A stretch of 64,000 nucleotides of DNA. It comes from Hemileia vastatrix. Its lineage: Eukaryota > Basidiomycota > Pucciniomycetes > Pucciniales > Zaghouaniaceae. Location of the stretch: positions 5,780,501 through 5,844,500 of the forward strand of contig JASXTE010000017.1 in assembly GCA_030280995.1 (NCBI GenBank), in the 5' to 3' direction. The position numbers and the translations under genes were made by a program. This document shows positions 7,572 through 63,323 of the stretch, piece by piece. A model generated the notes under the pieces. The model was not told the origin of the DNA and ran no database searches. It saw only the letters and a program-made list of their open reading frames with translations. Numbering within the stretch: the first letter of the stretch is position 1; the number at the start of each line of letters is the position of its first letter.

Positions 7572-7624
7572 CATCTCCTTTTTCTTTATCTCAAATCTCT
7601 TCTCCTCCAAATCATGTGCCCTTT

Positions 7625-15181: not shown

Positions 15182-15229
15182 TTTTACGTGGAATTTAAAG
15201 AATTGAAAGTTTAGATATGAAAACTTCAA

Positions 15230-18604: not shown

Positions 18605-18660
18605 AAATAATTGCAGAAGATAATTGAGGTATAATGATTTTTATCCGCAGTTAAATTAAT

Positions 18661-18688
18661 TGCGGATTGGTCAACATTGATACCCCCT
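18661..18688. repeat. right terminal inverted repeat of H3
   Basis: TTGATACCCCCT ends at 18688, preceded by GCGGATTGGTCAA, as in H1 (62591-62618) and H2 (32875-32902). The flanking ATT cannot be compared because the left end is lost. Confidence 0.65.
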
Positions 18689-22292: not shown

Positions 22293-22347
22293 AGGGGGTA
22301 TCAAAGTTGACCAATCTACAATTAGGGATCAGGAATTTTTTTTCCAG

Positions 22348-22611
22348 TGTGGTCTTCCAAAATTGGAAGAGGCCTTTGTTGGTCTGTTTGGTGCTGTTTT
22401 GGTATGTCTCAATTGACATTGGTTGAATAATTAGGTGTTTTTCTGGTTTTATTCAGTGAATATTGGGACTATGGGTATAGTAACAGTCTCTAATTTGCTG
22501 TAGCAAATAAATCTCACCTGGTATTTCTCAAAGGGACAGGGGTTTTTCTCTCCAGTTTTACTCCAACTCCCTTGGTCAAGGCCTATAGCTAGTACTATAG
22601 GATTGTCTATA
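22348..22611 (+). repeat. 5' LTR of element E, internally deleted
   Basis: It starts TGTGGTCTTCC and ends GATTGTCTATA. Its first about 130 bases match the start of the 3' LTR, and its last about 130 bases match the end (TAGCTAGTACTATAGG). About 780 bases present in the 3' LTR are missing between GGGTAT and AGTAACAGTC. Either the 5' copy has a deletion or the 3' copy has an insertion. Confidence 0.75.
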
Positions 22612-22869
22612 TTTCTTGCCCCCAATGTGGGGGTGAGGATTTGCTAGCTTTTGGAATCTCTGTTACTGTTGGACTCTCTTCTTTTGTGGAATCTTTGTGG
22701 ATTTTGGTTTTTTGTGCTGTATCTCTCTATGGTTGGTCTAGGGGGTCTTCTCTTTAGTTGGATTTGGTCACTCCTAGGTCTCTGAAGGATATTGGGGGTA
22801 CTTTAACTATCTGTGGTGGAAAGTTAGGGAGGTGTAATTGGAAATAGTTAGGATGGTCAGGATCAAGTC

Positions 22870-24524
22870 ATGGAAAGGGAAATTTGCTTTGGAGAGGAGG
22901 CAAGGTTATTTTTGGAGATCTTTGAAGCTGATGCTGATGTGGATGGGGCTTCTGATCTGGATAGGGTGAAGCAGGTGATCTTCTTCATTGATGATAGAGA
23001 AGTGGTGAAGAAAACTCTTAGGATGGAGAGATATAGGAGTCAGGATTGGGGAAAGTTAAAGATGGAAATGATCAGGAGGTGTACCACTGTGTTTTCAATG
23101 GATGATCTTTATGGCATTGCTAGGAAATGTGAAATGGATAGTGGTGTAACTTCTCTGGTTCAGTATAGTAAATTTATGGAGGAATTTGAAGAGGTTATGG
23201 ATTATCTGGATTATAGTGGTATTTCCTCTCATGAAATGGAGGCCAAGAGTTTATTTTGGAGTGCCATGGGTCTGGAGGTCAAAAAGGAGTTTCAGGGATT
23301 ACTGTTAAAGGCTGGGCTGATAAAGACACTTTTAAATGGAGAATGTAGGATTCCTGCTATAGGTGTTTTGAAGAAAGCTATTCTGGCGCATCTTGAAACC
23401 CTTGTTTCTAAAGAGGTGGAACCTGAAAATGAAAATTTAATGGATGGAAAGGTTCAGTAAGAAGTGGTAGAAAATTCAGCTATATTGGAGATTTTGGAAT
23501 CACCCACTTTGGGAGATGATGATGTTTTTGATGTTTCAGAAATTTTTATTTCTTTAACAGATGATGTCAATGGATCTCAAGAACGTGCTTCATTTGATGT
23601 TTTGGATATTTACACACTGGATGATCAGTGTATCTTTTCAAAGGTGGATGAGCTCTGTGGGAAGGAAAAATTGGATGTTCATGATGATATTGTTTTTTCA
23701 TGTTTAGATAATAGATTTTTGGATGAATATGTTTCTTTAAGATCTGTGATGGTCAGCAAGAGTCTGTGTTGGATCTATTGCTCTTAGAGGAAGATTTTTT
23801 TCTGGGTGCTCCTTTAAGCTCAGAAGATGAATGCTTGGAGGAGGATATTAATTTTGATGTTATGGACTCTATTCTGGAGGATCTTTTGGATTATCAAAGT
23901 AGTTATGAACCTAATTATTTGAAGCCTCATGAAAAAGACTCTCAGTTTCTTCTTTCATGTTCAGAGGATGGAATAAGTGGTGAAAGTCTCTCTATAGAAA
24001 TTTTGGATCTTCAGAATGATTATGTTCTGGATGTATGTTTGTTGGAGGAATATAATTCCAAGCTGGTTCCCTCAAGATCAGAAGATAGTTCCTTGGGGGA
24101 AGATGATTCATTTAGTGTTCTAGGTCCTATTTTGGAGGAATTTTTGAAATTTCAGAACAATTTTGTGATGGATGACCTGTAGTTAGAGCCAGTAGATTCT
24201 CAGCTGCTTCACTCAAATGGAGAAGGTTTCTGTAGGGTGGAGGGGAAAATTATTGGTAATTTGAATTTCCCTTACATGGAAGAGGTCATTTTGGATTCTC
24301 ATTTTAGAGAAATTAAAGATGTGGTGGCTGCTCCTTCAATCTCAAAGGATGCAGAGTTTTTGGAAGCTGGGATTGAAATTGTTGGTAAAGTCAGTGTATG
24401 GAGAAAGATGGAAGATTTTTTTGAAGGTCTGATTATGGGATATCAGAATTGGAAGAGGGGCTTAGCTTTTTGTAGCACTAGGGGAAAACTTATTGGTTTC
24501 AACTTGGGGATTTCAAGAATCTGA
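22870..24524 (+). pseudogene. gag-like ORF of element E
   Basis: The ATG at 22870 opens 196 codons ending at TAA 23458-23460. The same frame continues to about 23760, a +2 shift continues to TAG 24180-24182, and that frame goes on to 24524. Read as one damaged gene it covers about 550 codons. The first part resembles the capsid-like gag of rust retroelements (QDWGKLKMEMIRRC, LVQYSKFMEEFEEVMDYL, CRIPAIGVLKKAI). The remainder is a long acidic region with repeated Glu/Asp/Leu blocks. I see no zinc knuckle or protease. It is probably a particle protein (inference). Confidence 0.65.
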
Positions 24525-24905
24525 TTCCTCCAAAATGAGGACAAACTACTTAATTGGTTTTGTTTTTGTCTAATTTAGTCTCTATATTCTTTGTCAGGAT
24601 TTTTTTTGTTTTGTCCAATTCTTATCAGTTTCTCTGGTTCAAGTCTCTATATAAAAATATATATATAAAATCTTAGTATAATGAAGATGGAAGAAAAGAA
24701 AAATTCAATGAAAGATGGATATTTTATTTAAAAGAAAATGAAGGTAAAAATGATGATCATTGGTTTTTTCTAACCTCCAGAATGAGGTTAAACTGCAAAA
24801 TTTTTTATTTCTAAAATGGATTTCTGGCTTTCAAGAATTTTGATGTTTTTTTAATAGTTTTGGTATTTTATGGGACAAGATTTGTGTTGGAAAATCCTTT
24901 TGTTA
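24525..24905. other. internal spacer of element E
   Basis: This is T-rich non-coding DNA between the gag-like ORF and the first hairpin block. I see nothing further in it. Confidence 0.4.
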
Positions 24906-24907
24906 GA

Positions 24908-26345
24908 AGGTACCCTAGGGTGGGGCCTCTAGATTTGTTTTTGGAAAGTGTGGGGGTAAATGATAGGCTGGCTGCTCTATCAAAAGTTACCCCAGATTGT
25001 CTGTTTCCAACCCCTTCTCTTAATTTGGTTGAACCCTAGTGTTGGTTTCTATTCACAGGTTTTAGTCTTCTATGACTTTAAACTGAAAATTCTTTTGGTG
25101 TTCAAGTGCTGGACTCTTCACACTTATTGTTTTTGGTTTATTGTGTTGTATTTTGTGTTTTTGTTAGAAGGTACCCAGAGGGGCTTCTAGATTTTAAGTT
25201 GGAAAGTGTGGGGGTAAATGATGAGCTGGCTGATCTGTGGAACTGTTACCCCATAATTTCTGTTTCAAGTATTTTGTTTGTCCTAGTTGAATCCTAGTTC
25301 TGGTATTTTTTATTCAGGTTTCAAGTCCTCTATGACTTAAAATTGGACTGGACTGGTTCCTTGGCTTGGGACTGGCTTCTTTATCTTTGGTGCTTTTGGA
25401 TTTATGGTGGATAAATGATGGTCTCCCATCATTTTTATTTATTGGAGGGAGCTTACCCAGTGATCTTTTCTGTGGACCTGGACCTGGCTCTTTTATGTGG
25501 TTTTAGGGTGTTGGCTGTTTAAGTGGTGGATTCAAGATTATTTTCTTTTTTCTCTTCTTTCTTTTAATTTTTTATGGAGGCTATGTTTGTTCAAATGCTC
25601 AAGATAGGGCTCTAGAAATGTTTTTGGTAGAAGAGGAGGAGTCAAAATAAAAAAATAATGTTTTAGGTGTGACCACATCAAGGTGCACTTGTATGTGGGC
25701 AAGGTATCAGGAGATCAGCTCATCAATTGGCTGGGGCATACCATTTTGTTAATTTTTTTTATAAAGGATGAAGGTTCTAGTGGAAATCAAGAACTGTTGG
25801 ATACTACTTCAAGATTTTCTGTTAGTCCTCCAAGACTTAAACCTGGCTGGTTTTTTTTAAGATTGCTTCAAGATTTTTATTTTCTTACTGCTGTGGATCT
25901 GTTAGTCTTCTAAGACTTTAAGCTGGCTGGTTTTCAAGATTTTATCAAGAATTTGGCCTATGCTTTTCTGGATCTACTAGTCTTCCAAGAATTTAAATTG
26001 GCTGATTATAATTTTTTTTAAGAATTTGAGTCCTCTATGGGTTCTGAAGTCTATCAAAACTTTAAACTGAACACTTTGGTAAGTCCATCAAGACTTTAAG
26101 CTGAACACTGTGGTCAGTCCATCAAGACTTTAAACTGAAAAATGGTATATTCCTTCAAGACTATAAACTGAGGATTGTTTTATGGTTGAGTCCTTAAGGA
26201 CTATAAACTGATAATGTGGTGTTGGTATAATTCTGGCAGAGGGCATCCAAAGGGGGAGTCTCTGAATTTAGTTAAGGCAAGTGTGAGGGTAACTGATGAG
26301 CTGGCTGCTCTGTAGAACAGTTACCCCAGAATGTTAGTTTATTTT
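24908..26345 (+). repeat. three dispersed hairpin blocks in element E
   Basis: A block of about 100 bases occurs at about 24908-25010, 25170-25265 and 26240-26345. Each has AGGTACCC or a related start, then TCTAGATTT or similar, then GTGTGGGGGTAA, GATGAGCTGGCTG and TTACCCCA. The GGGTAA and TTACCC words pair around a loop of about 30 bases. The third copy has the longest perfect stem, GGGTAACTG/CAGTTACCC. The short ORFs here are not supported. Confidence 0.65.
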
Positions 26346-26545
26346 CTTTAGTCTTTAATGGTTTGATCTCTGGTTATGTTTTTATGATTTAGGTTTTTAG
26401 TCCCCCAAGACTATAAACTGAGGGTTTTTAGTATCCCAAGACTATAAACTGAGGGTTTTGAGTCCCCCAAGACTATAAAATGAGGGCTGTTAGTCCCCCA
26501 AGACTTAAAACTGAGGATGAGTCCCCCAAGACTTTAAACTGAGGA
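25060..26545 (+). repeat. about 15 copies of a 24-base motif in element E
   Basis: The consensus is AGTCCCCCAAGACT followed by ATAAACTGAGG. Copies lie near 25066, 25329, 25828, 25903, 25977, 26060, 26083, 26116, 26150, 26188, 26399, 26429, 26461, 26490 and 26520. The last five are almost contiguous at about 30-base spacing. AGTC and GACT within the motif can pair. This is too ordered to be simple low complexity. Confidence 0.75.
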
Positions 26546-26549
26546 GTTT

Positions 26550-27298
26550 TTTTATGGTTGGCTACATTCAGAAAGTCTGGAAAATGGTCAATTTTTATTT
26601 ATTTATTTCTAAGTCAAGAATTTCAGGTAAGAGTCAATTACAGAAGAGAATCCAGAGATGAAACAAGGTGTTCAGCATTAGTCTTGAACTGGTGGATGTG
26701 TCTTCTTTTCTCAATCTTCTGTGGATCTTTGGCAGGAGTGTATTGGAAGTAGTTTAGAATGAGATGTTTTTGATGAGAAGAGTGTTGTAGGAAATTTTCC
26801 TTGATGGTAGGCAATTTATTGGATGGTGGTGTTTCAAAGGTTCCCACATTGTCATCATCACTGTCTGGATGGGAATGAACTGGAAACTCATCAGTTTAAA
26901 TTTCAGTATGGAGAAGTTTTGGTTTTACCATCAGAAAGACCAGGTATGGTAGAGCTAGTGGTTTTAGTGGTGTTGGCACTCTTTTTCGAAAGGTGTAACT
27001 TGTTGATTAATCTGGGTATCAGGATGGAAGGCCTAGATCTTTTGGTTTTTCTGGAAGAAGGACCAGGTTGAGGGGGAGGTGAATCTGTTGCAGATGATAA
27101 TTGACCAGGTCTGGAGAAATATTTCTTTCTGGAATAGCAGGAATCACAAGCAGTTCTGTATGGATGAATTGGTGGTTTTATGGTGCAGATGAGGTTGTCA
27201 TCAATACAGTATTGACAGGGACCCCTTTCAGAGATTGATTTTGAAAAATGTGTGAAAATGGTGGTTTTGGTGAAGGATCATGTGGAAGTTCTCAATTT
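26550..27298. other. 3' internal region of element E
   Basis: Non-coding DNA with a few short ORFs that lack recognisable motifs. It leads into the TGGAAGTTCTCAA stretch and the polypurine tract. Confidence 0.4.
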
Positions 27299-27307
27299 GA
27301 GGGAGGA
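27299..27307 (+). other. polypurine tract of element E
   Basis: GAGGGAGGA lies immediately before the 3' LTR start TGTGGTCTTC at 27308. This is the expected primer for plus-strand synthesis. Confidence 0.7.
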
Positions 27308-28360
27308 TGTGGTCTTCAAACATTGGCAAAGGCATTTGTTGGTCTGTTTGGCGCTGTTTTGGTATGTCTTAATTGACATTGGTTGAAAATTAGGTATTTT
27401 TCTGGTTTTATTCAGGGAAAATTGGGACTGTGGGTATGTGGGTACTACTATTGGATAACCCTGATGAAATTTTTCATATTCTAAGTTTTAAGGGGTCATT
27501 TGCTCATTTTTCATTTCTAAAAGATAGCTGTTTAATTTTTTTTGTGTTTTATAAGCTAACCTTAAGTTTTAGGGTTAAGTGCTTAGTACCATTAAGTTGA
27601 GCTAATTTGGCTCTATATTTTATGTCTAATGTTGTCATAGCTTAATTTTGTGTTTTAAGGGTTTTAGTAGTCACGGTGGATTTTTCTAAGTATTTTGGGC
27701 TTTATTGGAGGTTTTTGGTGATTTTCTGGCTTCAGGGAGGTCTGGCTGCTTCTAGGCGGGCTGCCCGCCTTGGTTATAGAAGGCTGGGGAGCGCTTCTAG
27801 AGGGTTTTTATTCAATTTGGCTGCCAAAAGCGCCAAATTCGTTTCTGTGCATGGCTTTATTAGATGGTGGTCTGTGTGTACATACTGAATAAGACAGTTT
27901 GGGGCAAATTTAATTATCATGCAACCATCCGGAGGTGATATCATTGTTTCTAACACAGTTTTCACTGTTTTTTAGCCACAATTGGCTGTGTTTTTTTCAC
28001 GGTTAGTTCTTCATTTAACTCAAATTTTGAAACTGGTTTCTCTGGTGTAGCTTTGCAGCTTGCATCAAGTATTATTTCTGTTTTCTCTGCAACAAGTGCA
28101 CAGTTTTTTGTTTTTCTGGTGTGGATCTTTCTGCATTTCAGGTTTCAGGTTCTTTGGTTCTCAAAGGTCTGCTATTGGCTACTGTCTTGACTTATAAAGC
28201 ATTCAAGAAGTGTGCTGGAAGGGGAATAGTAACAGTCTTTAATTTGCTGTAGCAAATAGATCTCACCTGGTATTTCTCAAAGGGACAGGGGGTTTTCTCT
28301 CCAGCTTTACTCCAACTCCCTTGGTCAAGGCCTATAGCTAGTACTATAGGATTTTCCACA
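27308..28360 (+). repeat. 3' LTR of element E
   Basis: A 1053-bp LTR starting TGTGGTCTTC and ending GGATTTTCCACA. It contains two strong hairpins: AGGCGGG-CTG-CCCGCCT (27754-27770), and AATTTGGC paired with GCCAAATT (about 27814-27839). These lie in a locally GC- and CpG-richer patch. Confidence 0.75.
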
Positions 28361-28390
28361 CCAGGATCAGACATTATAAATTTCAGATAA

Positions 28391-28426
28391 TTCTTATCCA
28401 CTATCCCCAGGGCTAGTGGATAAGGA
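28391..28426. repeat. subterminal palindrome of H2
   Basis: The 17-base arm TTCTTATCCACTATCCC faces GGGCTAGTGGATAAGGAA with a two-base centre and two mismatches. It is the decayed equivalent of the near-perfect palindrome in H1 (55307-55342). Confidence 0.7.
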
Positions 28427-28689
28427 ATCCACGATAATGCATTATCTTGCCTCTTATAACCAAATTTCCATTCCTAATTCCTGATTCCTGATTCGAAACT
28501 CATCACATCCATGAAGGATTTTTAAGAAAGTCACATGACTTATAATTGCTGATGCCATCCTTAAGTCTTTCATCACTCTATACTACTTAATTTTGGTGGC
28601 AAACACTTAAAGTTTTTTTCTATCTACACACCCCAACTACACATTTGGTGGTTAATTCCCACTTCCCTCATCACATAAGCCTTCCACAA

Positions 28690-29958
28690 ACAACTATAAA
28701 ACACCTCTCTACTAGGCAGCTACTTCACTCAACTATGAATGCTTTCACTTTACTTTTAGTTCTTTACTATAAAAAAGACTCTGGATTGGAAGATGCTTTA
28801 GCCTATATGTCATTTCTTTCAAAAAAGTATTACATAAACTCAAGGGGGCCAAATTTTCATCATGATCCCAGATATGATCTCCGCTCCATTCTCAACATTC
28901 CTCAACTAAACGTCACTTAACTATTTTAAAATTCTCACAATTCTTTCTTCAAACTTTATCAACTCATCTCCAAACATCCTATATTTTATAACAATTCTCA
29001 AAATAAATAGCATGATCCTGCTATTCAACTTGCTGTTGCACTATGTTGCTTTGGCTCAAATGGAAATGGTGCTTCTGTAAGACGTTTGGAAAATATTTTT
29101 ACCACAGGATATGGGAAGGTGATATTATACACCAAGCACTGTATGATTGCTATCCTTTCTCTCAAGTCTCAAACACTTTCTTGGCCAACTCCACAACAGC
29201 AAATTGAATCCTCTCAAGTAATGCAAGCTGAAGGTTTCCCTGGATGTGTAGGATTTGTTGATGGCATGACTATACCTTTGAGTCAAAAGCCTGCTTATGA
29301 TGGAAACCATTATTTTGATTGCAAAAAAAAGTTTCTTCAAAATGTTCTCCAATTTCACATCTATCATATACTGAACTTTTATCTTCTTTCTAGATACTCT
29401 ATTGCCATTCAACTTGTCTGTGATGCCAATAAAGAATTTGTTTCTCTTCATAGTGGCTGCCCTGGCTCATGTAATTACTCTTCTGTCTTCCAAAGAATGA
29501 GGATTTCTCAAACTCCTGACTCATACTTTGACAAATCTCAGTACCTCCTTGCAGACTCAGAATATGCAAGTGAAAAGTACATTATACCTGTTTTCCATGG
29601 TGCAACTATAGAAAATGACCCCAAAACCACCTTTAATTATCACCTTGCCCAATCAAGAGTACAGATTTAACATGCTATTGGGATTTTAAAGGAAAGATTT
29701 CCTAGTCTCCGTGAACTCAGAATCCAATTTCAAAAAAAAATGGAAATCAAAACTGCAAATCATTGGATAATGACTTGTGTTATAATCCACAATATCCTAG
29801 CTGATTTAAAGGATGAGTGGAATGATATTTATGAAGAAGAGGATCCTGAAACAGCACCAGCTCTTTCCTCCCTTGAATCACAAAAAAGTCATTCAACTGG
29901 CATACGCTCTGCTATTATGCCTATTGCTCTCAAAAATTTCTCTTTACAACTCTTTTAA
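28690..29958 (+). pseudogene. decayed PIF/Harbinger transposase of H2
   Basis: It aligns almost end to end with the intact H1 transposase. The start ATG is ATA here, and stops occur near 28918 and 29010. The first catalytic Asp survives (GFVDGMTIPLSQ). The second is lost (GSCNYSSVF, Asp to Asn), and the Glu codon region reads a stop where H1 has RIEHAIGIL. The intron donor AGGT has also lost a G. Many changes from H1 are CpG to TpG or CpA. The element cannot make an active enzyme. Confidence 0.85.
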
Positions 29959-30103
29959 ATTATTTTTTGTACTCTCCCAATTTTCAACTTCCTTGTTTTT
30001 TCACTTGTTTTATTTTCATGTTCCATGTTTTATTCACTTTAATAAAATAACTTTACAGTTTTAGTATCCCATTTTAAATGCTAATGTATGTCTAAAACTA
30101 CTT

Positions 30104-30520
30104 TGAAGTTAATTTTTTCACCCTATATATTTCATGTTTCAGCTATTATTTTATAGCAGTGAACTCTGTTCTTCACACAAAGAACCGATTCCATCCTCCT
30201 ATTTTCAGAAGTTAATTTTTTCACCTTATATATTTCATGTTTCAGCTAGTATTTTATGGCAATGAACTCTGTTCTTTGCCCAAAGAACAGAGTCCATCCT
30301 CCTATTTTCTGAAGTTAATTTTTTCAACTTATATATTTCATGTTTCAGCTAATATTTTGTGGCAGTGAACTCTATTCTTTTGCCAAAGAACAGAGTCCAT
30401 CCTCTTATTTTCTGAAGTTAATTTTTTCACCTTATATATTTCATGTTTCTGCTAATATTTTATGGCAGTGAGCTCAGTTCTTTTCCTAATGAACAGAGTC
30501 CATCCTCCTATTTTCACACT
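30104..30520 (+). repeat. four-copy tandem repeat, about 103 bp, in H2
   Basis: Units start with GAAGTTAATTTTTTCA near 30104, 30207, 30311 and 30415. Each holds a hairpin. In the second copy ACTCTGTTCTTTG (30266-30278) pairs perfectly with CAAAGAACAGAGT (30281-30293) across two bases. No such array is seen in H1 at this place. Confidence 0.85.
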
Positions 30521-30810
30521 CAGTTTGCACCAATCCCCATCCCTTTCAATTCTATCAACACATGCTTGTCTTCCCTCCCCACCCCTTTCGCTACCCTCCC
30601 AGCCCCATTGTATGCCATCCTCTTTCGATCCCCATTTCACCCCTCCCAACCTCTCCCCAACCCTTTTCTTCATTCAAAATGCCTCAGAAACTCTTAATCT
30701 TCCCTTCTTACTCTTTCACAACCTTTTTTCAACCTCATATATCCTTCCTCATCCCTCTCTCAGGCCTCCCCAACCCTTGTAGCCCCATTCCTCCCCTTTA
30801 CATTACCTTC
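30521..30810. other. C-rich tract in H2
   Basis: A strand-biased C/T-rich stretch, comparable in position to the C-rich arm at 57390-57755 in H1 but without the G-rich mirror arm. The ORFs here on both strands are by-products. Confidence 0.55.
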
Positions 30811-30819
30811 AAAATCCTT

Positions 30820-30990
30820 GAAACCAAAATTTTGGTGATACCCATCCCTTACTTCAATGAAATTCAGGGATGAGGATTTCCAAAATTTCATATAACACTT
30901 GAGAAATTCTTTACTTGAAAGAATTCTGGTGATACCCACCCCTTAGTTCAATCAAATGCAGGGGTGGGATTGGGAAATTTTAAAATGTGA
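30820..30990 (+). repeat. hairpin units shared by Harbinger copies (H2)
   Basis: Two units of the same repeat that forms a five-copy array at 60310-60740 in H1. Each has GGTGATACCCACCCCTTA then TCAAATGCAGGGGTGGG, so CCACCCCT and AGGGGTGG pair across about 16 bases. They lie just outside the 3' end of the Myb-like gene. Confidence 0.65.
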
Positions 30991-31182
30991 CTTAAAAATT
31001 TAAACTAAAAAAGAAATTTTAGCATTAAAAATTCTTGAAAATTTTATTTAAACAAGAATTTATAATGTTAAAATATGAATGTTCAACTAATGATGGATAG
31101 AGTAAAGAAGTACAGGAAATTAAGATAAAATTTTATGTACAATTAATTATGAACAGTTGAAGTGTGAGAGAAATAAATCAAA

Positions 31183-32724
31183 CTAGTCATCAAACAATTT
31201 CTTTAAACGTTTAATTTCCTCAACAGATTTATTAGCTTTAACACATTCTATCAAGAAATATTTATTTTTGGAATTTTCTTCATGATCAAGCTCATATTGC
31301 ATCTGTTCCATGCGGTTTTGATGCTCAAGTGTTTTCTCCTCTTTCTTTGATTTTTCAATACTTAGAGATAACTCAAATTTCTTCTCCTCCAAGTCTTGTG
31401 AACTATAATCCTTCTGTAAAGAGAGTTTGTACTTCCTCTCCTCCAGGACTTGTGTCCTATCATCCTTCCATAAAGAGAGTTCAAACTTCTTCACTTCCAA
31501 ATCATGTACCCTGTCATCCCTCCTTAAAGAGAGCTCGTAATTTTGCTTTTCAAATTTTAGAGTCTTTGTAGAAACTCCCACTTGTTCTAGAGCAATAATA
31601 AATATTAAAAAAAAAGTAGAAGAAAATCAGAGTGAAGTATTAAGAGGTTTGGTATCACTTACAAGCATCACGTTTCTCCAAAAATTCTTTTATAGAAGAA
31701 AAAGGGGTTTGAAATGAAGTATCACTTTTTCTTCTTCCTTGAGAGTGGAAATTTAGACCACTTGAAGCCCTTTTCTTTTTGTTCAAGGTCACATTTACCT
31801 CATAATTATTGTTGCTGGCTTCTGACTCAGTTGATTGTGTCTCCTGTCTTTGTTCTTCAGCCTTTTTAGAAATAAGAAAATATAAATAAAAAAAAGAATT
31901 GGTAAGATAAAAGAAAAAAAACATACTTGAGTTAGATCAGGTTGGTTTATATTGCCATAAGGATCTATTAAAAATATATCTTGATTTGTGGAAGTTAAAT
32001 GAGGGGAGGCTTGAGTAGAAGAAGAAGGTAAAAGATTTCTTTCAACATCATGTTTGGAGATAGAATCTTCACCATCCAACATGTTTGTAGGATTAACACC
32101 AGCTTTCTCTCTGGAAATGGAATCCATCTCTTTAAAGTAAGGACATAAAGAGTTAAGTTTATCATCTATGGATTTGATGCCCTTACTGATATTGAGGTCA
32201 GTAATACCTAAACTAGTAGAATATGAAAGAGTTTTTTCCTTCTTGCATTTGGTTTGATAATGCTTGAAGTGTTCAGACATCTGTTTAGGTACAAGATCTA
32301 TCCTTCCCTTGGTCTTATTCCAAAATTTATTGGCTATTAGAAGATAACCATGAAATTTTGACTCTGGGGGCCGTTCTACTTTAGTTGCATTTTCATTACC
32401 AAAACCAGAATCATAGTTAGATTTAGTTTTCAGCCAGTTGATAAGAATGAGATGATCATATTTTTTGAATCGAATGGTCTTTGATTTCTCAGCTGAGAAG
32501 GGGAAGGTAGGAGTAGTGAAATTTGAAGAAAAACTGGGGGAAGGCTGCCTGTGAGAAGATCTATGAAGACTGGGAATGTTAAGATAATTGAAGATGAAAA
32601 GGAGAAAAAACAAGTATATGAGATGGTGAGGTGTTTTGAATGGATAAAATAGACAGGATGAGATGAGAATGGGAGTGTGCAGCAAGTTAGAAGGTATATC
32701 CAGAGAGTAGTCAAAGATGTGCAT
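31183..32724 (-). pseudogene. Myb/SANT-like gene of H2, nearly intact
   Basis: Three exons on the minus strand match the intact H1 gene: exon 1 to 31927 (donor CAA/GTATGT), exon 2 31861-31663 (donor GTAAGT) and exon 3 31586-31183 (acceptor CTAG). The domain core reads LILINWLKTKSNYDSGFG, NKTKGRIDLVPKQMSEHF and KGIKSIDDKLNSLCPYFKEM. Exon 2 has NKKKRAS and GRRKSD basic patches. Exon 3 has the KKFELSLWKDDR-type repeats. Two faults appear. The MPRH-equivalent ATG is lost. The last base of exon 2 is T instead of G, which makes the exon 2/3 junction codon TAA. It is otherwise open. Confidence 0.8.
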
Positions 32725-33049
32725 ATGAATGAAAGTTGGCCAAGATGTGGTTATGAAAATTTGAGTAGAAAAATAATGGATAAGAGGTCAAATTTGACAC
32801 GTGAAATGTCTAATAACCCAAATATTAGCAAAGATAATTGGGTTATAATGATTTTTATCCACAATTAATTTAATTGTGGATTGGTCAACTTTGATACCCC
32901 CTAATGATAAAAATAAAATAATATAAGCCAAAAAGACATCAAAAGTGTAACAAAATAAATACAAAAATTCACCAAGAGTGATAATTAAATCAGTAAAGTT
33001 GATATTCTCTTCAGAATTGAAAAATGACTGTTACTTATATGAAAATTCT

Positions 33050-41409: not shown

Positions 41410-42650
41410 AGTAAAGAAAGAAACTTTTTAATATCAGAACTTGATTTATTTTTATTAACAAGGGCAAGTAAATAAACATTATTTCTTAATTATTCAGCCT
41501 CAATTGGATTGATTTTTAATTCATCAACTCATAGCTAAATTTGGCCTTTTCTAATTGAAATTGTTTTTTTTAAGTTCTTCATTGTCCTCTCTTTGAATTC
41601 TAACCTTATCCCTCTTCAAATTTAAATTATCTCTCTCAGTTTCTAAATATTTTTCTTCTTTCATATTTGAGTTAAGCCACTTTTTTCCTTAAAAAGATGT
41701 TGATTCTCTGCAGTTTCTCTTGACACTTCAACTTCATGATTTCAATGTGAGATTTTTCTTTTTTCTGCAACAGGGCTAAATTTTAAGAATAAGAAAAAAA
41801 TTAAAAAAATTTTTATTAAATGCAAAAAAAACCCTTGCTCATGTTTATTAAAAATCTCACCATAAAGAGAAAAAAAGGCCTTTGATGTAGATTGAGTTGT
41901 CCAAAAACTAGCAGAAGCCCTTTTCTTGAGTCTTTTTCTAGGAGTTTTTGGTTCTTTGAATTCTGATTTTTAATTTCAGTTACTTCCTTATAAATCTGTA
42001 GATTTGATGAGCCTTTGGTCTGATTAATACATGGTAAGTAAATAAGCAATGCAAAAAAAAAAAAATAACAACAAAATTAGTTTAAGCCTACTACCATGGG
42101 CTCATAAGGCTCAATTTCAAAATGCTCAGTTGGTTCTTCAAATTCAGGAGAGTCAAGAAAAGGATGTAAAGGAAATTCTTGATTATTTGTGTGAGACTCA
42201 GAAATTTTTGGACCTTGATTCATATGCTAGAGGTTAAAATATGGTCTTTTTCCAAAGAGTTAATCCATTTTATCACAAAGATAACACATAGAGTTGTGTT
42301 TTTCAGAAAAAGATGTGATTCCATGTTTCTCATCATCTTCTTTGACTCCAAACCAAGTTGAAAAAGAAGCTTTATTTTACTTCTCATATTTTTATTCATA
42401 ATTTTGAATAGCTCCCTCATTTTCTTTGTTGTAAAATCCATCTTACCTCTAGTTCTCTTTCAACTCCACCAAAATTTTATTATAAACCCCTAAATTTTAG
42501 GCTGGTGGATGACCAACTTGAGTGGACGTTTCACAGACAAAAAATGTTTCAAAATTGAATTGAATTTTCAGCCAGATAATCACAATCTGTGGTTTAGATG
42601 GGTTAATTTGAGTAAAGTTTTGAGAAGTAAATTTTGGGAAAGTCATGATA
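41410..42650 (-). pseudogene. decayed, diverged Myb/SANT-like gene of H5
   Basis: Pieces on the minus strand align in order with the H1 protein. IIWLKIQFNFETFFVCETST and VGHPPA match INWLKTKFNYDSCFG and VGRPPA. GKMDFTTKKMRELFKIMNK matches GRIDLLPKQMSERFKHYRE. WFGVKEDDEKHGITSF to LFGKRPYFN matches GFGVTNNDITKGIKSI to IFGERDNVN. FLDSPEFEEPTEHFEIEPYE matches the end of exon 1, PKTPRKRLKKRASASF the exon-2 basic patch, and LLALVNKNKSSSDIKKFLSL the C-terminus. Many stops and shifts are present. The homology is clear although residue identity is low, so this is an old copy of a distinct subfamily. Confidence 0.75.
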
Positions 42651-43167
42651 AATTAACTCTAAAAAAAATTAGTGAAAATGAAAATTTTGTTGAAGAAAAA
42701 CAAAAAACTAACAACAATTTTAGATATATATGAAGCCTTAGATAAAAATAAGAAGTTGTGGGGATAGAAATTTGAGCTAGAAAATTTAATAAAGAAAGGA
42801 ATAAAAAGTAATAGACTTAATGTGATGTGAAGGGAAAAGAATGTATTTGGAAAAGAACTGGGAGAGAAGACATTTAAAGTGGAGTATATGTGTTATGTGG
42901 GTTAGGGTAGAAGATAGGTGATGCACAGTTGATTGATAAGATGTGGGTATTGGTTGTTTGAATGGTGGTTGAAAAAATGGCACAAAATTAGGGTGTATTT
43001 GACCCCATATTTTAGACCTCAAGTACCAAATCAGATATATTTTATGGTGGTTTTGAGTAGAATTTTAAAATGAAACATATTAGGAATCTTTGGTAAGGTT
43101 TTAGACCCTCTAATATATATATATATAAAGAATATTTTTTCACTAGCTTTGAGAGTACTTGAATTTC

Positions 43168-43257
43168 GGCCCTTTACTTGGCCTGTATAGTCTTTTCATG
43201 GCCCTTTTGTCACCCCTACAGGGCCACCACGCAGCCTGAATGGGGGTCAGTAAAGGG
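43168..43257. repeat. GC-rich foldback
   Basis: CCCTTTACT near 43170 pairs with AGTAAAGGG at about 43247-43255, inside a GC-rich patch with GGCC and GGGGGTCA words. It stands out from the AT-rich flanks. It is possibly a relic terminal repeat. Confidence 0.4.
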
Positions 43258-43559
43258 TTGACAATGTGCCAATTTAGTCCCTTTAATAATTTTTAAGTAT
43301 CATGAAAAAATTTAATACCTTGTCTACAGCCTTCACCTCTTATTTTCTTGACAGATTACAAAATCTTATTAAATTTAGCACTTTTTTTGCTTATTTTATC
43401 ACCTTGATACCCCATAATCTTATATATTGATTTAATTTTATATTGATGAAGCAGATAATTACCAATTATTTAAAAAAGAGTCACAGGAAGAAAATTATGA
43501 AGAAAACATCAATATATCCTGTAAATTTCATAAGCTTCTTATCTTTATTCAAGATTAGA

Positions 43560-54801: not shown

Positions 54802-55224
54802 TGTCGGTCAGTCGTCTAGAAGAGATAAGAGAAGAGGGAAGAAAAGAGAGGAGGACAAGAAGGAGATAGTAGTTTAGAAATAAAAGAAATAAAAACAATT
54901 TAAATTATTTAATTTATTTGAGAGAAAGCAACGACGAGTGATTTGAGAGATGAAAACAAATTGGTTTTATTAATATTAATATTATTTAAGTAAGAGTTCT
55001 GCACGGCAAACACTATAATTACTATCAGACTTAAGGCAACCTTTAAATTGTTATTTAGAATTTTTAATCAGAATTTAATACTAATAAAAATAATAATAAG
55101 CGTAATAAATTTATCTTTAAATTGTTGAGTGTGTAATAAGTGATGAGTCTACAGGGGATTATCCAAGGCCCTTTTATAGGCAATGGGTCCTCTGAAGCGC
55201 CACTATATTTGTAAATACAATAAT

Positions 55225-55300
55225 AGGGGGTATCAATGTTCAGGGATCCGCAATTAGGGATCAGGAATTTTTTTTCCCGGGATCAGACATTATTAATTGC
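55225..55300. repeat. left TIR and subterminal motifs of H1
   Basis: AGGGGGTATCAATG, then CCGCAATTA at 55248 and TTAATTGCGGA near 55292. The right end has the same words: AATTGCGGA near 62543, CCGCAATTA near 62575, and AATTGCGGATCGG near 62588 before ATTGATACCCCCT. The ATTGCGG words at both ends are plausible binding sites for the Myb-like partner or the transposase (inference). Confidence 0.75.
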
Positions 55301-55306
55301 GGAAGA

Positions 55307-55342
55307 TTCTTATCCACTAGCCCCAGGGCTAGTGGATAAGAA
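55307..55342. repeat. 17-bp-arm perfect palindrome in H1
   Basis: TTCTTATCCACTAGCCC faces GGGCTAGTGGATAAGAA with a CA centre. H2 keeps it with two mismatches at 28391-28426. It lies between the left TIR and the transposase. Confidence 0.85.
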
Positions 55343-55603
55343 ATCCACAATAATACATTATCCCGCCTCTTATACCCCAATTTCCATTCCTAATTCCTGA
55401 TCCCAAACTCATCTCATCCATGATGGATTTTTAAGAAATTCACATGACTTATAATTGCTGATGCCATCCTTAAGTATTTCCTCACTCTATGCTACTTAAT
55501 TTTGGTGGAGAACACTTAAGTTTTTTTCTATCTACACACCCCAACTGCAAATTTGGCGGTGAATTCCCACTTCCCTCATCACATAACCCTTCCACCGGCA
55601 ACA

Positions 55604-56863
55604 ATGAAACACCTCTCTACTAGGAAGCTACTTCACTCAACAATTAATGTTATTACTTTTCTTTTAGTTCTTTACTATAAATCTGACTCTGATTTGGAAG
55701 ATGCTTTAGCTTATATGTGTTTTCTTTCCAAAAAGCATTACATCATCACTAGGGGGCCAAATCTTTATCATGATCCCCGATATGATCTGGCCTCCATTCT
55801 CAACATTCCTCATTTAAACTTCACACAACTTTTTAGAACTTCTCCCGATTCTTTCTTCAAACTTTATCAACTCATCTCCGATCATCCTATCTTCCATAAC
55901 AATTCTCATAACAAACAGCGTAATCCTGCCATCCAACTTGCTGTTGCTCTATGTCGCTTTGGCTCAAATGGAAATGGTGCTGCCGTAAGACGTTTGGATA
56001 ATCTCTTTATCATAGGATATGGTACCGTGATATTATACACCAAGCGCTGTATGATTGCTATCCTTTCCCTCAAGTCTCAAACTCTTCCTTGGCCAACTCC
56101 AGAACAGCGACTTGAATCCTCTCAAGTAATGCAAGCTGAAGGTTTCCCTGGCTGTATAGGTTTTGTTGATGGCACAACCATCCCTTTGAGTCAAAAGCCT
56201 GCTCATGATGGCAACCATTATTTTGATCGCAAAAAAAGGTTTCTTCAAAATCTTCTCCAAGTTCTCATCTTTCACAATCTAACTTTTTATCTTCTTTCTA
56301 GATACTCTATTGCTGTTCAACTTGTATGCGATGTCAATAAAAAATTTATTGCTTTTCACAGTGGCTGCCCTGGATCATGTCATGACTCTTCTGTCTTCCA
56401 AAGAGTGAGGATTTCTCAATCCCCTGAATCATACTTTGTCGAATCTCAGTACCTTCTTGCAGACTCAGCATATGCAAGTGGAAAGTACATTATACCTTCT
56501 TTCCATGGTGAAACTTCAGAAAATGAGCCCAAAACTAAATTTAATTATCACCTTGCACAATCAAGAGTACGAATTGAACATGCTATAGGTATTTTAAAGG
56601 GACGATTTTCTAGTCTTCAGGAGCTTAGAATCCAATTTCAAAAAAAATTGGAGATCAAAACTGCAAATCATTGGATCTTGACTTGTGTAATACTCCACAA
56701 TATTCTAGCTGATTTAAAGGATAAGTGGAATGATCTTTATGAAGAAGAGGATCCTGAACCACCACTGGCACTCCCCTCCCTTGATTCACAAATCATTCAA
56801 TCAACCGGCATACGCCCCATTATAATGCTAATTACTCTCCAACATTTCTCTTCACCCTTTTAA
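55604..56863 (+). CDS. PIF/Harbinger DDE transposase (H1)
   Basis: A DDE_Tnp_4-type nuclease that cuts and joins the element ends. The first true ATG is at 55604 (MKHLST); the open frame upstream starts only with TTG. A 63-nt intron (56239-56301, GTTTCT...TTTCTAG) is in frame, so the ORF reads through, but the spliced form gives the family's KKRYSIAVQLVCD junction. Spliced length is 398 aa. Catalytic residues: Asp in GFVDGTTIPLSQ (about residue 200), Asp in GSCHDSSVF (about 270) and Glu in RIEHAIGILKGRF (about 340). No stop or frameshift. The C-terminus is acidic. In this superfamily transposition also needs a Myb/SANT-like partner, here at 60865-62266. Confidence 0.92.
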   Translation: MKHLSTRKLLHSTINVITFLLVLYYKSDSDLEDALAYMCFLSKKHYIITRGPNLYHDPRYDLASILNIPHLNFTQLFRTSPDSFFKLYQLISDHPIFHNNSHNKQRNPAIQLAVALCRFGSNGNGAAVRRLDNLFIIGYGTVILYTKRCMIAILSLKSQTLPWPTPEQRLESSQVMQAEGFPGCIGFVDGTTIPLSQKPAHDGNHYFDRKKRFLQNLLQVLIFHNLTFYLLSRYSIAVQLVCDVNKKFIAFHSGCPGSCHDSSVFQRVRISQSPESYFVESQYLLADSAYASGKYIIPSFHGETSENEPKTKFNYHLAQSRVRIEHAIGILKGRFSSLQELRIQFQKKLEIKTANHWILTCVILHNILADLKDKWNDLYEEEDPEPPLALPSLDSQIIQSTGIRPIIMLITLQHFSSPF

Positions 56864-57213
56864 TTTTTAATTTTTATGTTTTCGTACTTTCCAAATGTCC
56901 TCTTTGTGTACTTTAATCACTTGGTTTTGTATTTTGGTTTGTTGAATATTCATTTTTTTTTTGAATTTACGGTGAATATCTTTTTTTTGGATGGCTCATT
57001 GGTTTTCTTTCACTTCCTCAACATGAAATCACATATTTTCTTATATCACATATTTTGTCAGTGATTTTTTTTTTCATTCATCACTCATATCCTTTTCATC
57101 CTCTCCTCAAACATCCCTCAAATATTTTGGTTGCATTTATTTTCTCTACTCAACTCACCAGGTAGGTCATTTTTTTTCTTTTTTCATGGTTTTTTATTTG
57201 CTAATCATGATTT

Positions 57214-57270
<57 letters not shown>

Positions 57271-57389
57271 TTTTTTTTGTTTTTTTTGTAAGTGCTTCTT
57301 TTATTTTTGTTCTAGGGTAAACTAATTTTTGTTTTGCTTTTTTCTCTTTTTTATCTTTTTTTTTTGTTTTTTTTTCTCTCCTTCACCTC
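56864..57389. other. T-rich stretch in H1, no gene
   Basis: T-runs with GCTTTTTTTTT-type units (57210-57290). The ORFs on the plus strand are Phe-rich by-products. Confidence 0.6.
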
Positions 57390-58140
57390 TCTTTATCATC
57401 CTCAAGGCCCCCCTTTTTCCCTCTCTTTACCTGTCTCTGACCCCCTTTTTACCCCCTTTTTAGCTGCCTCAAATCCCCCCTTTCCCCCCTCTTTAGGTCC
57501 CTCATCACCCCCCTTCCCCTCTTTTTAGGTGCTTCAATACACCCCCCTTCCCCTCTCTTTATGTCCCTCAACCCCCCCCCCTTCATCTCTCTTTTGCCGC
57601 CTCAAACCCCCCCCTTCACCTCTCTTTACCCACATCAAACCCCCCCCTTTCCCTCTCTTTAGGCGCCTCAAACACCCCCCCTTCCCCCCTTCTACTCACT
57701 TTACCCCCCTACCCAATCGTTATATCCTCCTCTACCCCCCCCCTGTTTATTAACGAACAATCGTTACAGATTGTTCGTTAACAAGGAGGTGGGGGGGGGG
57801 GGGGTAGAGAAAGGGGTAAAGGTTTGGGAGGGGGTAAGGTGATTGGAAGGGGGGGGGGGTTTGAGGTGCCTAAGGAGAGGGGAATGGGGGGGGGGGGGTT
57901 TGAGGCGCCTAAGGAGAAGGGAATGGGGGGGGTTTGAGGCGCCTAAGGTGAGGGGAATGGGGGGGTTTGAGGCGCCTAAGGTGAGGGGAATGGGGGGGTT
58001 TTGAGGCAGCTAAAGAGGGGGGAATAGGGGGGTTTGAGGCAGCTAAAGAGGGGGGAAGGAGGGTGATGAGGGACCTAAAGAGGGGGGAAAGGGGGGTATT
58101 TCAGGGGGATTTTGAGGCAGGCAAGGAGAGCATTTGAGGG
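57390..58140. repeat. long C-rich/G-rich inverted repeat with perfect centre
   Basis: The left arm (about 57390-57749) consists of C-runs and CTCTTTAGG(C/T)(G/C)CCTCAA units. The right arm (about 57782-58140) consists of about seven G-run units of about 34 bases with TTTGAGGCGCCTAAGG. The centre is TTAACGAACAATC (57750-57762) paired with GATTGTTCGTTAA (57769-57781). The arms are imperfectly complementary tandem arrays of the same unit. The Pro-rich ORFs on the plus strand are by-products. Confidence 0.85.
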
Positions 58141-58767
58141 GGAAAAGGGGACATTTATGGGAGATAAAGATGGGTTACCAACTTTCAAATAAAGATACTA
58201 ACAAATTTTTGTTTGTAATTTTGTTTATTTTTTTGCAGTAATATAGAAAAAAAAAAAAATTCTTTCTGATAAGGACTGTCCCTCTTATTTACAAAACAAA
58301 AAAGGTTTATAATTTTATTTTTATTTTTTCTATAATTAATTTTAGTGATTTTGATTTTTTTTAAATAATTTTTTTATTTTTTATTTTGATTTTACTGATT
58401 TTTTTTTTTTCATGATCTTGTGAGAAGGTTTTTAATAACCAATCTTCAGGTTCACTTTTCATTTTTTTTTTTTTAATTTTTTCTTTGTGATTTAATTCTT
58501 ACTGAAATTTTCTTTTTTGAATGAATTTAATTATTAATTTTTTTTAATATGATTTTGCTTTGATTGTGTTTTTTAAAATAAAACCTCAGGTTTTTTTTTT
58601 TATAAATTTTTTTTTTGGAAAAATTTTTACTGATTTTTTGGTTTTTTTTTTCAATTTTATTTTTAAAATAAAAAAACAGCTTTTTTTATTATTAGGTAGG
58701 AATTTTTTTTAAAAAAAATTTGAGTTAAAATTTTATTGACAATTAATTTTTTTTTCAGATCAAAAAA
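58141..58767. other. T-rich leader of the dioxygenase gene
   Basis: T-rich DNA ending in a TTTTTTTTCAG acceptor-like sequence ten bases before the ATG at 58768. This suggests an intron in the 5' untranslated region. No other feature is seen. Confidence 0.45.
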
Positions 58768-60016
58768 ATGTCTTCTTCTTCTGATTCACCCCTTACTTCT
58801 CTCTTATCTTCATCTTTATCTTCTTTATCATCTTCATCTTTATCATCTCTATCATCTTCTTTGAAATCAACTCTATCATCTTCTTTGAAATCAACTTCCA
58901 TACAATCATCTTCTAAATCATCAAAAAAAATTAAAGATAATCAGTCTCATCAGAAGAAAAGATATTTAAAAAAAAGTCTCTCTGCGAAAGTTATTTTTGT
59001 CATATCCCAAACATTTTTTTTTATAAAACTAAAGTAGATAAAAAAATTCAATATCCGAAAAAATTACCAGAAGATATCAAATATCTAACAGAATTTGGAG
59101 ATGATCGAGTTGTTGCAGTTATCAGCAATGCTTTTAAGCCTCAATTCATTTTGGAAGTTCATTCATTCAATGGTGTAAAAGATGAAGCTTTTAATCAACT
59201 ATCCGATCTTATCATAACTCTTTATCAAATGGCTTTGTTTCGGTTACCTATAAGGGATAAGAATTTGTTGGGTGGTATCATGATTGGTTTTGGTTGGAGA
59301 CCTGGTTTTGTCAAAGGATATTCTCTTGGTATGTCTAATAATTTTTGTTCCATTCTTAATATCATTTCACTTATTTCAATTATATAGGTATATATTCATT
59401 GCTCAATAATATCACTAAAGCACAAAAAGATGAAGATTTTTGCTTATGGGACACTCTACCTTCCTTTAATTCTTTTCTTGCTCTTTGACTCAAAAAGCTC
59501 TGTAATAAGGCATTTGAAAAAAATCATGAACTTGCAATCAAAGTTGGAATACCGAATTGGTGTGACTCCAAATGGGAAGATATCAGCCATGAATATCTTT
59601 TATTTTCTAATGTTATTATCACTCATTCTGGATTCCACAATAGGATTCATATCGATAGGAATGATGCCAATTTTCTTACTTTTGGAATATTCTCATATAT
59701 CAATCCGATAACTGGCCACCCAATACCATCTCCAGCTAAAATCAAAGGACATGGTTTATATTTTCCAGACCACCGGTGCATCATTGATTTTGGTTTGGGA
59801 AATGGTATCATTGAAACTATTTGGAATTCTTCTAAGGATAATCATCAAACGACCAAAGCTCCTCCTGGTTTGGAATCCTGTCAAGATTTCACTCATTTCG
59901 GTTGCTCATTTCAAATCAGTAATAAGTTGATACAAAGAATCAATAAGGTAAAGAAAGAAGGTAAAGTTATTCAATTTAAAAAAACTTTATCTAGATCCAA
60001 AAAGTATGGGGATTAG
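58768..60016 (+). pseudogene. TET/JBP-like 2OG-Fe(II) dioxygenase gene, two lesions
   Basis: The ATG at 58768 is followed by a Ser-rich and then Lys-rich N-terminus. A one-base slip in an A-run near 58970 shifts the frame, after which reading stays open (KKIQYPKKLPEDIKYLTEFG to GWRPGFVKGYSLG). A 59-nt intron (59329-59387, GTATGT...ATATAG) then joins GGT ATA. One TGA at 59486-59488, consistent with CGA to TGA, interrupts exon 2, which otherwise runs to 60016. The catalytic region has NRIHIDRNDANFLTFGIF (the HxD iron site), HGLYFPDHRCIIDFGLGNG, then HQTTKAPPG (candidate distal His) and FTHFGCSFQIS. This order matches the fungal TET/JBP family of DNA-base oxidases that is expanded in basidiomycetes. 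Enzyme activity is not shown, and two lesions suggest recent inactivation or sequence error. Confidence 0.75.
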
Positions 60017-60309
60017 AGTTGTCATCGAAAATTTTATATTTTTTCATAAATTTTTAATAAATATTTTTTATATATCAATTTTCTCAAATAATGTGATGAG
60101 CCATCAACCTTGTGTTGTATAACAGGTAATCATGATAACATTTATTTGTTTCATGGGGTTCCTCTAGCCTATACCTGTGGAAAGTCCCAAACTTTTGTTT
60201 CTCGACTTGGTCTGCATTTTGGCTTGAGGGATTGTCATTACTTTAAACTAGGGAAATTGATATATATTAGATATTTATTTAATAATTTATGTAATTATAT
60301 TAAATTTAG
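60017..60309. other. 3' flank of the dioxygenase gene
   Basis: A short AT-rich stretch. A 67-codon ORF at 60110-60313 (YLFHGVPLAYTCGKSQTF) is coding-like, but I do not recognise it. Confidence 0.35.
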
Positions 60310-60740
60310 ATGACTTGCACCCCTTAATTCAATAAAATGCAGGGGGGGGTATTGCCAAATTTTCAAATCTGACATGTGAAATTGATGACTTAGAAAAATT
60401 TTGGTGATACCCACCCCTTGCTTCAATAAAATGCAGGGGAGAGTATTGCCAATTTTTTTAAACAGATATAGAATTTTTTTGACTTGTAAATATTTTTGTG
60501 ATACCCATCCCTTACTTCAATAAAATCCATGGGGGGTTGTGCCAAAATTTCTTATAAGACTTGTGAAATTCTTGACATGTAAGAATTTTTGGGATACCGG
60601 TAAAATGCAGGGGGTAGTAAAGCCAAATTTTCATATAAAACTTTCAAGATTCATGACATGAAAGAAATTTTGTGATACCCACCCCTTACTTCAAAAAAAT
60701 CCAGGGGTGGGGGATTGTCAAATTTTCAAAGGAGACTTGA
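60310..60740 (+). repeat. five-copy hairpin array in H1
   Basis: Units of about 80-110 bases. Each has TTTTGGTGATACCCACCCC, TTACTTCAATAAAATGCAGG, then GGTATTGCCAAATTTTC and GACTTGTGAAATTC. CCCACCCCT and AGGGGTGGG pair (best copy 60678-60686 with 60703-60711). The same unit occurs in H2 (30820-30990) and in H5 (40960-41110), always between the plus-strand module and the 3' end of the minus-strand Myb-like gene. Confidence 0.75.
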
Positions 60741-60864
60741 AAATTTTATTTAAAAAAAGAATATTTAACATTAAAATACGATATTTCAAGAAATACAGAA
60801 AATAATTGTAAAATTTATGTACAAATAAATATGAACACATGAAGTGCGAAAGAAATAAAAGAAA

Positions 60865-62266
60865 CTAGTCAACAAAAAATTTCATTAAACGTTCTATTTC
60901 TTCAACAGATTTGTTTGCTTTAATGCATTCGATCAAGAAATCTTTCTTTTTAGAACTTTCTTGGAGATCATGCTTATACTTCATCTGTTCCATTAAGTTT
61001 TGATGCTTGAGTATTTTTTCCTTATTTTTGGATTTTTCAATACTAAGAGTTAACTCAAACTTCTTCTCCTCCAAATCTTGGGCCCTACCATCCTTCTGTA
61101 AAGAGAGCTCAAACTTCTTCTCCTCGAAATCTTGGATCCGATCATCCTTCCGTAAGGAGAGCTCATACTTCATCTCTTCCAAATCTTGTACTCTGTCATC
61201 CCTCCTTAAAGAGAGCTCGTATTTCTTATTTTCAAAGCTCAGAGTCTCTTTAGCAATTTCCACTTGTTCTAGAGTGAGAATAAAAATTAACATAAAGTAG
61301 AAGAAAAGCAGAGTAAAGTAATAAGAGGTATGATATCACTTACCAGCATCACGTTTCTCTAAAAACTGTTCCATCGAAGAAAAAGGTGTTTGTGATGAAG
61401 TATCACTTTTTCGTCTTCTTTGGGAGTGGAAATTTAGACTAGTTGAAGCCCTTCTCTTTTTGTTCAACGTAGCATTTTCCTCCTCATCATTGTCACTAGG
61501 TTCAGACTCAGTTGATTGAGGATCCTGGGTTTGTTCATCAGCCTTTTAAGAAATAAGAAAATCTAAGTAAATAAAAAAAAGTATTGATAAGATAAAAGAA
61601 AAAAAAACAGACCTGAGCTAGATTGGGTTGGGTTAAATCGCCAATAGGATCAATAGAAAAGCTATCTAGATTCGTAGAATTTAGAAGAGGGGAGGCTTGA
61701 GTGGAGGAAGAGGATGGGAAAAAATTTGCCTTGAAATCATGTTCGGAGATAGGATCTTCAACATCCAACATGTTTACAGGATTTACATTGTCTCTCTCTC
61801 CAAAAATTGCATCCATCTCTTTAAAGTAAGGACATAAAGTTTCAAGTTTATCCTCTATGGATTTTATGCCCTTAGTTATATCGTTGTTGGTAACCCCAAA
61901 ACCAGTGGAAGATGAAAGAGCCTTTGCCTTCTTGTATTTTTCTCGGTAATGCTTGAATCGTTCAGACATCTGTTTAGGCAAAAGATCAATCCTTCCCTTG
62001 GTCTTATTCCGTAATTCATTTGCCATTAGAAGATAGCCATTAACTTCTGATGCGGGGGGCCGTCCTACTTTAGTGGCATACTCAGTACCAAAACAAGAAT
62101 CATAGTTAAATTTGGTTTTCAGCCAGTTGATAAGAATGAGATGTTCATCTTTTTTTAATTGAACAGTCTTTGATTTCTTGGCTGAGCGGGGGAAAGAGGA
62201 AGTAGTGGGAATTGAAGAACAACTGGGTGATGGCTGCCTTTGAGAAGATCTAGGATGACGAGGCAT
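60865..62266 (-). CDS. Myb/SANT-like partner protein of H1
   Basis: Three exons: 62266-61613, 61542-61344 and 61268-60865. Donors are GTCTGT and GTAAGT, and acceptors are AAAAG and CTCTAG. Spliced length is 418 aa with no stop. I start at MPRHPRSSQRQPS (62266) because the frame upstream is hydrophobic and not conserved. Residues of about 30-130 form the DNA-binding-like core (LILINWLKTKFNYDSCFG, KVGRPPASEVNGY, GRIDLLPKQMSERFKHYRE), then KGIKSIEDKLETLCPYF. Exon 2 gives NKKRRAS and RRRKSD, likely nuclear signals. Exon 3 is a charged coiled coil with about three and a half 18-residue repeats of the type KYELSLRKDDRIQDFEEK. This family is abundant in rust fungi. In Harbinger elements such a protein escorts the transposase to the nucleus and the element ends (established for the superfamily, inferred here). 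Confidence 0.85.
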
Positions 62267-62618
62267 GTTATTATAAATGAAGATGAAAAGGAGCAGAAAC
62301 AAGAAAGATGAGATAGCGAGATGAAAAGGAGAAGAATCAAATAGATGAAATGGGGAGAAATTCTGAGCGGATAGAATGAACAGGATGGGATGAGAATGGA
62401 AGTGCGCAGCAAGGTAGAAGGCTGGGATATCCAGAAAGTTGTCCAAGATGTGGTTATCAAATATTGAGGATAAAAATGTCAGATAAGAGGTGAACATTGA
62501 CACGTAAAGTGTCTAATAACCCAATTATTAGCAAAAATAATTGCGGAAGATAATTGGGGTATGCAGATTATTTTCCGCAATTAATTTAATTGCGGATCGG
62601 TCAATATTGATACCCCCT
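62267..62618 (-). other. 5' region of the Myb-like gene and right end of H1
   Basis: A purine-rich leader on the plus strand, then CACGTAAAGTGTCTAATAACCC and the subterminal ATTGCGG motifs, ending ATTGATACCCCCT at 62618. It is conserved in H2 and H3. Confidence 0.6.
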
Positions 62619-63323
62619 AATTATAATAGGATAAAACAAGTATATCAAAGAGTAAGTGAAACATAACAATGTAGAGAAAAATATGAAACAAATAATTAAA
62701 AAACCCAATTAAGAATCCAATTTTCCCGCCATTAATTCCCAAATCAGTAAGTAAAAATAGTGAATAACTAAACAATCCTGGAACATAGGAACTATGAGAA
62801 AAATCATTCAAAACAGATGGTACAGTCTGATTTAAGGATTTTTAAGTGAAACAAAAAATATTCTGACGCAACAAATATGTAATTTATTTCAATTCAGTAT
62901 TAATTAGTTTTTCCTGACACAATTATAGGTCAAAAGAAGCATCATTATTTATTGTTTAATATTATAAAAAATGATATGTAATATATAAATATAAATAATT
63001 AATTTAATTATATTATAAGTAAATTTTACACTTATAATTATAATATATGTTTTTAATTAATTAAATATAAATTTATAATTATTAAATACATAAAAAATGC
63101 GCCATTATTTGTAGAATATAATATATTATGTTAAATTTAAATGTATAAAAAATTTATATAACCAATAAAATTAATATAACACTTATATGTAATAAAATAC
63201 TTATATAATTTTATTATGCAATAAAATATTAATTTATATACATTAAATACAATTCTTACCCCCTCTTTCAGGTCCTATAAGTAACATATCATTTACTGGG
63301 CTCCTGGAATAGCCTGGCTGACA

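Follow-up and report, generated by a model that had tools for sequence, protein, structure and literature searches.

We analyzed a 64-kb stretch of the Hemileia vastatrix genome (64,000 nucleotides of contig JASXTE010000017.1, overall GC content 31.7%; hereafter the window), which harbors a mobile element designated element A. This GC content is close to the 33.8% that PMC8063080 gives for Austropuccinia psidii. As judged from the sequence, the element holds a Harbinger-type DDE transposase gene, a gene of the TET/JBP dioxygenase family and a third gene, all within one element bounded by two ends. An earlier interpretation of the same DNA, the sequence-only reading, had proposed a single Harbinger-type element of this kind within one pair of terminal inverted repeats (TIRs), and our analysis upheld this organization. 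The inverted ends (55224-55256 and 62587-62619) measured 33 nt and were imperfect, with 88% complementarity, and they enclosed the open transposase frame together with the TET/JBP-like gene and the third gene.

A TIR pattern that was itself derived from these ends, searched with a tolerance of up to three mismatches, occurred at five ends in the window, compared with a mean of 0.00 over 100 shuffles. Two of the five sites were the ends of element A, two were those of a sibling, copy B (22294 and 32901), and the fifth belonged to a fragment, copy C (18687); TA adjoined every one of them (5/5). The left flank was AATA and the right flank TAAT in both A and B. The AAT duplications assigned by the sequence-only reading do fit at A and B, but a 2-bp TA duplication fits these flanks equally well, the 3-bp version involving one more terminal base pair. 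Assuming the TA rule and random flanks, an AAT match would be expected by chance at ~0.033 per copy; a target-site preference could also yield the match at both copies.

The open reading frame (ORF) at 55520-56863 matched PF13359 (DDE_Tnp_4) with an E value of 3.7e-26 over the entire profile (1-158 of 158), confirming the proposal of an intact DDE transposase. Its probable intron is frame-preserving, as judged by eye from the GT..AG borders and the codon phase. The PF13359 match also identifies a Harbinger/PHIS DDE transposase, the type expected of PHISTA, a lineage named by Kojima that includes Harbinger families with a TET gene (TET+; PMC12730594, December 2025). The third gene, whose exons are likewise open in A, had been described as Myb/SANT-like. 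A gene is indeed present on the opposite strand, but the domain assignment derives from sub-threshold matches of its first exon to Myb_DNA-bind_4 (PF13837; E 0.028 and 0.012, below the Pfam cut-off), and the structure model of the protein is of low confidence (predicted local distance difference test, pLDDT, 42.6). The PF13837 match was not found in the third protein of copy B or in the single database relative, P0032, which was the one recovered from 178 candidates and has no Pfam domain. Elsewhere in the window, a decayed relative of the third gene (42233-43414, 34% identity) lies near a TIR-like end and probably represents another old Harbinger family.

Between the transposase and the third gene, the piece at 59489-60016 matched PF20515 ('Tet-like 2OG-Fe(II) oxygenase', 2OG standing for 2-oxoglutarate) with an E value of 1.1e-24 and 88.1 bits (cut-off 27) across positions 85-211 of the 211-position profile. 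This result establishes the proposed TET/JBP-like gene at this place and excludes the outcome of no TET/JBP hit. The proposed HxD iron site and distal histidine were also supported by conservation among 32 aligned rows: the ligands H54 and D56 (HxD codons at 59648-59656) were present in 32/32 and 31/32 rows, respectively, and the best candidate for the distal histidine, His119 (59843-59845), in 30, with a gap in the other two. Upstream, the piece at 58941-59330 matched fetched PF20515 relatives (best E 5.2e-12) and the piece at 59390-59485 matched the relative P0016 (E 1.2e-5), both within a 31-protein set only; the TET-like gene thus once spanned these pieces. Pfam searches of 59040-59327 alone and of 59390-59485 alone gave no match. 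Furthermore, the TET piece had 0 matches in a sequence search of the PDB, and scans of viral contigs found no relatives.

Table 1 Features of element A and its sibling copies (positions in the window)
Feature	Position	Strand	Remarks
Whole element A (GGGGGTATCAA...TTGATACCCCC)	55226-62617		Flanks AATA / TAAT; inverted arms; ends compared with those of B and C
DDE transposase	55604-56863	+	Probable intron 56239-56301 within open frame; PF13359
T-rich tract 3' of transposase	57160-57380
Inverted pair of ~33-bp minisatellite arrays	57380-58096		C-rich 57380-57687, G-rich 57852-58096
TET-like gene, N-terminal piece	58941-59328	+	Matches PF20515 proteins
TET-like gene, probable intron (GTATGT...TAG)	59329-59387	+	Phase fits both sides (by eye)
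TET-like gene, second piece	59388-59485	+	Matches P0016
In-frame TGA in conserved region of TET-like gene	59486-59488	+	Frame reading
TET-like dioxygenase, C-terminal piece (HxD, distal His)	59489-60016	+	PF20515, E 1.1e-24
~94-bp tandem repeats	60318-60727		Similar stretches in B
Third gene	60865-62266	-	Weak Myb/SANT match; about 3 exons (borders by eye); coiled-coil-like end (by eye)
Sibling copy B without TET gene	22294-32901		Split by ~6-kb insertion at 22345/28361
Sibling copy C, right part only	17357-18687		Shared end and third gene

The relatives of the TET-like piece comprised 31 proteins with E <= 1e-3 to the TET profile, two of them rows of the query profile. All 31 are marked PF20515, and those named by organism come from Puccinia and Austropuccinia. 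One of them, the Puccinia sorghi gene model P0026, links a piece matching the transposase (against 56399-56560, E 1.7e-8) to a TET domain; it lends independent support to the transposase-TET order in another rust, although it may be a fused gene model. A tblastn comparison of the 31 relatives with the window (E <= 0.05) yielded 36 matches, 34 at 58700-60100 and two at the transposase via P0026, and found no further TET remnants elsewhere in the 64 kb. The tree took in 29 of the 32 rows (P0029, P0030 and P0031 were dropped as too short) and placed the TET piece of the window on a long end branch (1.11), in no starred set, beside a 13-row group with support of 88/82, a placement that leaves its closest lineage undecided.

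Besides the ends, which are common to A, B and C, the copies share the third gene, and A and B also the transposase. Alignment of A with B gave 86.5% over 1610 columns for the transposase and 76.4% over 2089 columns for the third gene and right end. The homology ends just beyond the transposase stop codon, and the 859-bp middle of B (29968-30826) had no significant match to the TET gene or arrays of A, with short matches at chance level beyond the ~94-bp repeats. Both the different middle of B, the nearest relative seen, and the point at which the homology stops would be expected if the TET block (about 56880-60300) had inserted separately, by chance, into a Harbinger copy without TET. However, a dioxygenase inserted separately with its own ends, the situation named by the sequence-only reading as contrary to its view, was not apparent at the block edges: the edge regions matched each other over at most 10 bp, whether inverted or direct, a length equalled or bettered by 120 and 135, respectively, of 295 randomly paired stretches, and we rejected the block as an independent mobile unit. 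Moreover, P0026 pairs the same type of transposase with TET in another rust, and TET+ PHISTA families have been published in several species (PMC12730594). We regard a chance insertion as highly improbable. As to whether other Harbinger copies carry the gene, only sibling B could be checked within the window, and it is without the gene.

The TGA at 59486-59488 sits in a region shared with the relatives, and, because it precedes the iron site in frame, the TET-like gene of copy A is most simply seen as disabled and is probably dead. A functional dioxygenase would demand an unseen splice form, read-through or an assembly base error. The conserved iron ligands and the open frame of 175 codons downstream of the TGA, along with the open transposase frame and third-gene exons, would agree with such a rescue; yet inspection by eye revealed no alternative splice around the TGA that keeps the frame, and the serine-rich ORF starting with ATG at 58769 does not share the frame of the first conserved TET piece, making a working enzyme in this copy very doubtful. 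Less easily set aside, although still the weaker prospect, is a gene family whose 2OG oxygenases act on a substrate other than 5-methylcytosine (5mC), such as a hypermodified base, 6-methyladenine or a protein. The Pfam match and the fold comparison reach the superfamily only, with CMD1, AlkB, prolyl hydroxylases and cupins scoring alike, and PMC12730594 leaves other activities open. Against this, Pfam calls the family Tet-like, PMC12730594 links it to rust DNA transposons, and 5mC at CpG has been reported for Puccinia graminis, as cited in PMC8063080.

The sibling copies and the interior of element A showed further insertions and repeats. Copy B carries an insertion of ~6 kb near its left end (22346-28360) that looks like a long terminal repeat (LTR) retroelement; read by eye, its ends are TGTGG...CCACA and it is flanked on either side by CCAG. 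The transposase ORF of B ends at 29670, while the match to A continues to 29850. A Gypsy element (7616-17351) sits in the third gene of fragment C, which matches at 7586-7622 and then again from 17357. In element A, the inverted pair of minisatellite arrays is placed between the transposase and the TET-like gene, and one strand of it could form a very long hairpin. These inverted arrays may be new, since the term 'tandem repeat' is absent from the main text of PMC12730594. At the corresponding place, B carries a different tandem array (30105-30516, four copies of 103 bp, 90% match).

A further lead came from the CpG content of element A. The CpG observed/expected ratio (o/e) was 0.35 for the element (55226-62616), with 0.398 in the transposase, 0.366 in the TET gene, 0.448 in the third gene and 0.153 in the arrays. 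Elsewhere, the ratio was 0.148, 0.144 and 0.136 in the parts of B, 0.073 in fragment C, 0.085 in the Gypsy ORF region and 0.157 for the whole window. Within the stretches aligned between A and B (55277-56875 and 60880-62616), 29 of the 49 CG sites of A were TG or CA in B and 7 were kept, and of the 13 CG sites of B, 3 were TG or CA in A and 7 were kept. One-kb bins with an o/e of at least 0.33 made up 6/8 inside 55001-63000 and 4/56 outside, two of the latter lying in the LTRs of the young Gypsy. That Gypsy has 1.5-kb LTRs and an open frame of 1976 aa, with an o/e of 0.46-0.54 in the LTR bins and ~0.04-0.18 in the body; given that its LTRs are 99.5% identical, insertion age alone does not account for low CpG. 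These values raise the idea that the TET+ Harbinger lineage keeps, by means of its TET cargo, the CpG that was lost by the TET-less sibling and by the body of a very young Gypsy, which we consider unlikely. Several observations weigh against it: values as high as that of A occur in the Gypsy LTR bins (0.54 and 0.46) and in two further bins (0.39 each); B, being split by an insertion and having a transposase ORF shorter than its match, looks older than A; and the comparison contains one TET+ copy (n=1), whose enzyme is interrupted. We rejected the CpG footprint as proof, as outside bins also reach 0.33 or more; it stays a lead and may reflect age.

The sequence-only reading knew of no Harbinger element described with this cargo, which was not borne out: Kojima reported fifteen families of TET+ Harbinger elements from six rust species, with TA as their duplication (PMC12730594). 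That study also places TET- members in the PHISTA clade, describes a third protein that lacks a Myb/SANT domain and suggests an escape from silencing by methylation. Since it reports both, the architecture and the proposed function of element A are already published. Like the TET+ PHISTA families, element A combines a Harbinger-type transposase, a TET/JBP gene and a third gene in one TIR pair, with TA beside the ends; unlike them, its third protein weakly matches Myb/SANT (PMC12730594 states that none contains this domain), its TET gene is interrupted, and its duplication is TA or AAT, where the paper gives TA. With Nuwa, a PIF/Harbinger element, it shares a transposase accompanied by a second gene that may encode a Myb/SANT domain, and a 3-bp duplication is possible in A; Nuwa, however, is described as encoding two proteins and no TET (PMC12730594). 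The KDZ (Kyakuja-Dileera-Zisupton) elements with TET/JBP genes resemble it as basidiomycete DNA transposons with TET/JBP cargo, but belong to another transposase superfamily, and Zisupton-1_PGr has 8-bp duplications (PMC12730594).

Collectively, our findings indicate that element A is very probably a TET+ cut-and-paste DNA transposon of the Harbinger superfamily, PHISTA-like in type. As suggested by the protein families, the transposase, with the third protein as a DNA-binding partner, would move the element into AT-rich sites containing TA, and in intact members the dioxygenase would oxidize 5mC on the element. Such oxidation would ease methylation-based silencing and CpG decay of the element. 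In copy A the enzyme is probably lost, and any benefit would come from intact copies elsewhere. Element A confirms, for a single element, the presence of a TET/JBP gene in rust-type Harbinger transposons, and the TET+ and TET- siblings in one window offer a natural comparison on whether the cargo counters cytosine methylation and CpG decay. If the CpG lead were true, a transposon-borne TET would protect its own DNA against methylation-driven decay, and a test across rusts would be possible with sequence only.
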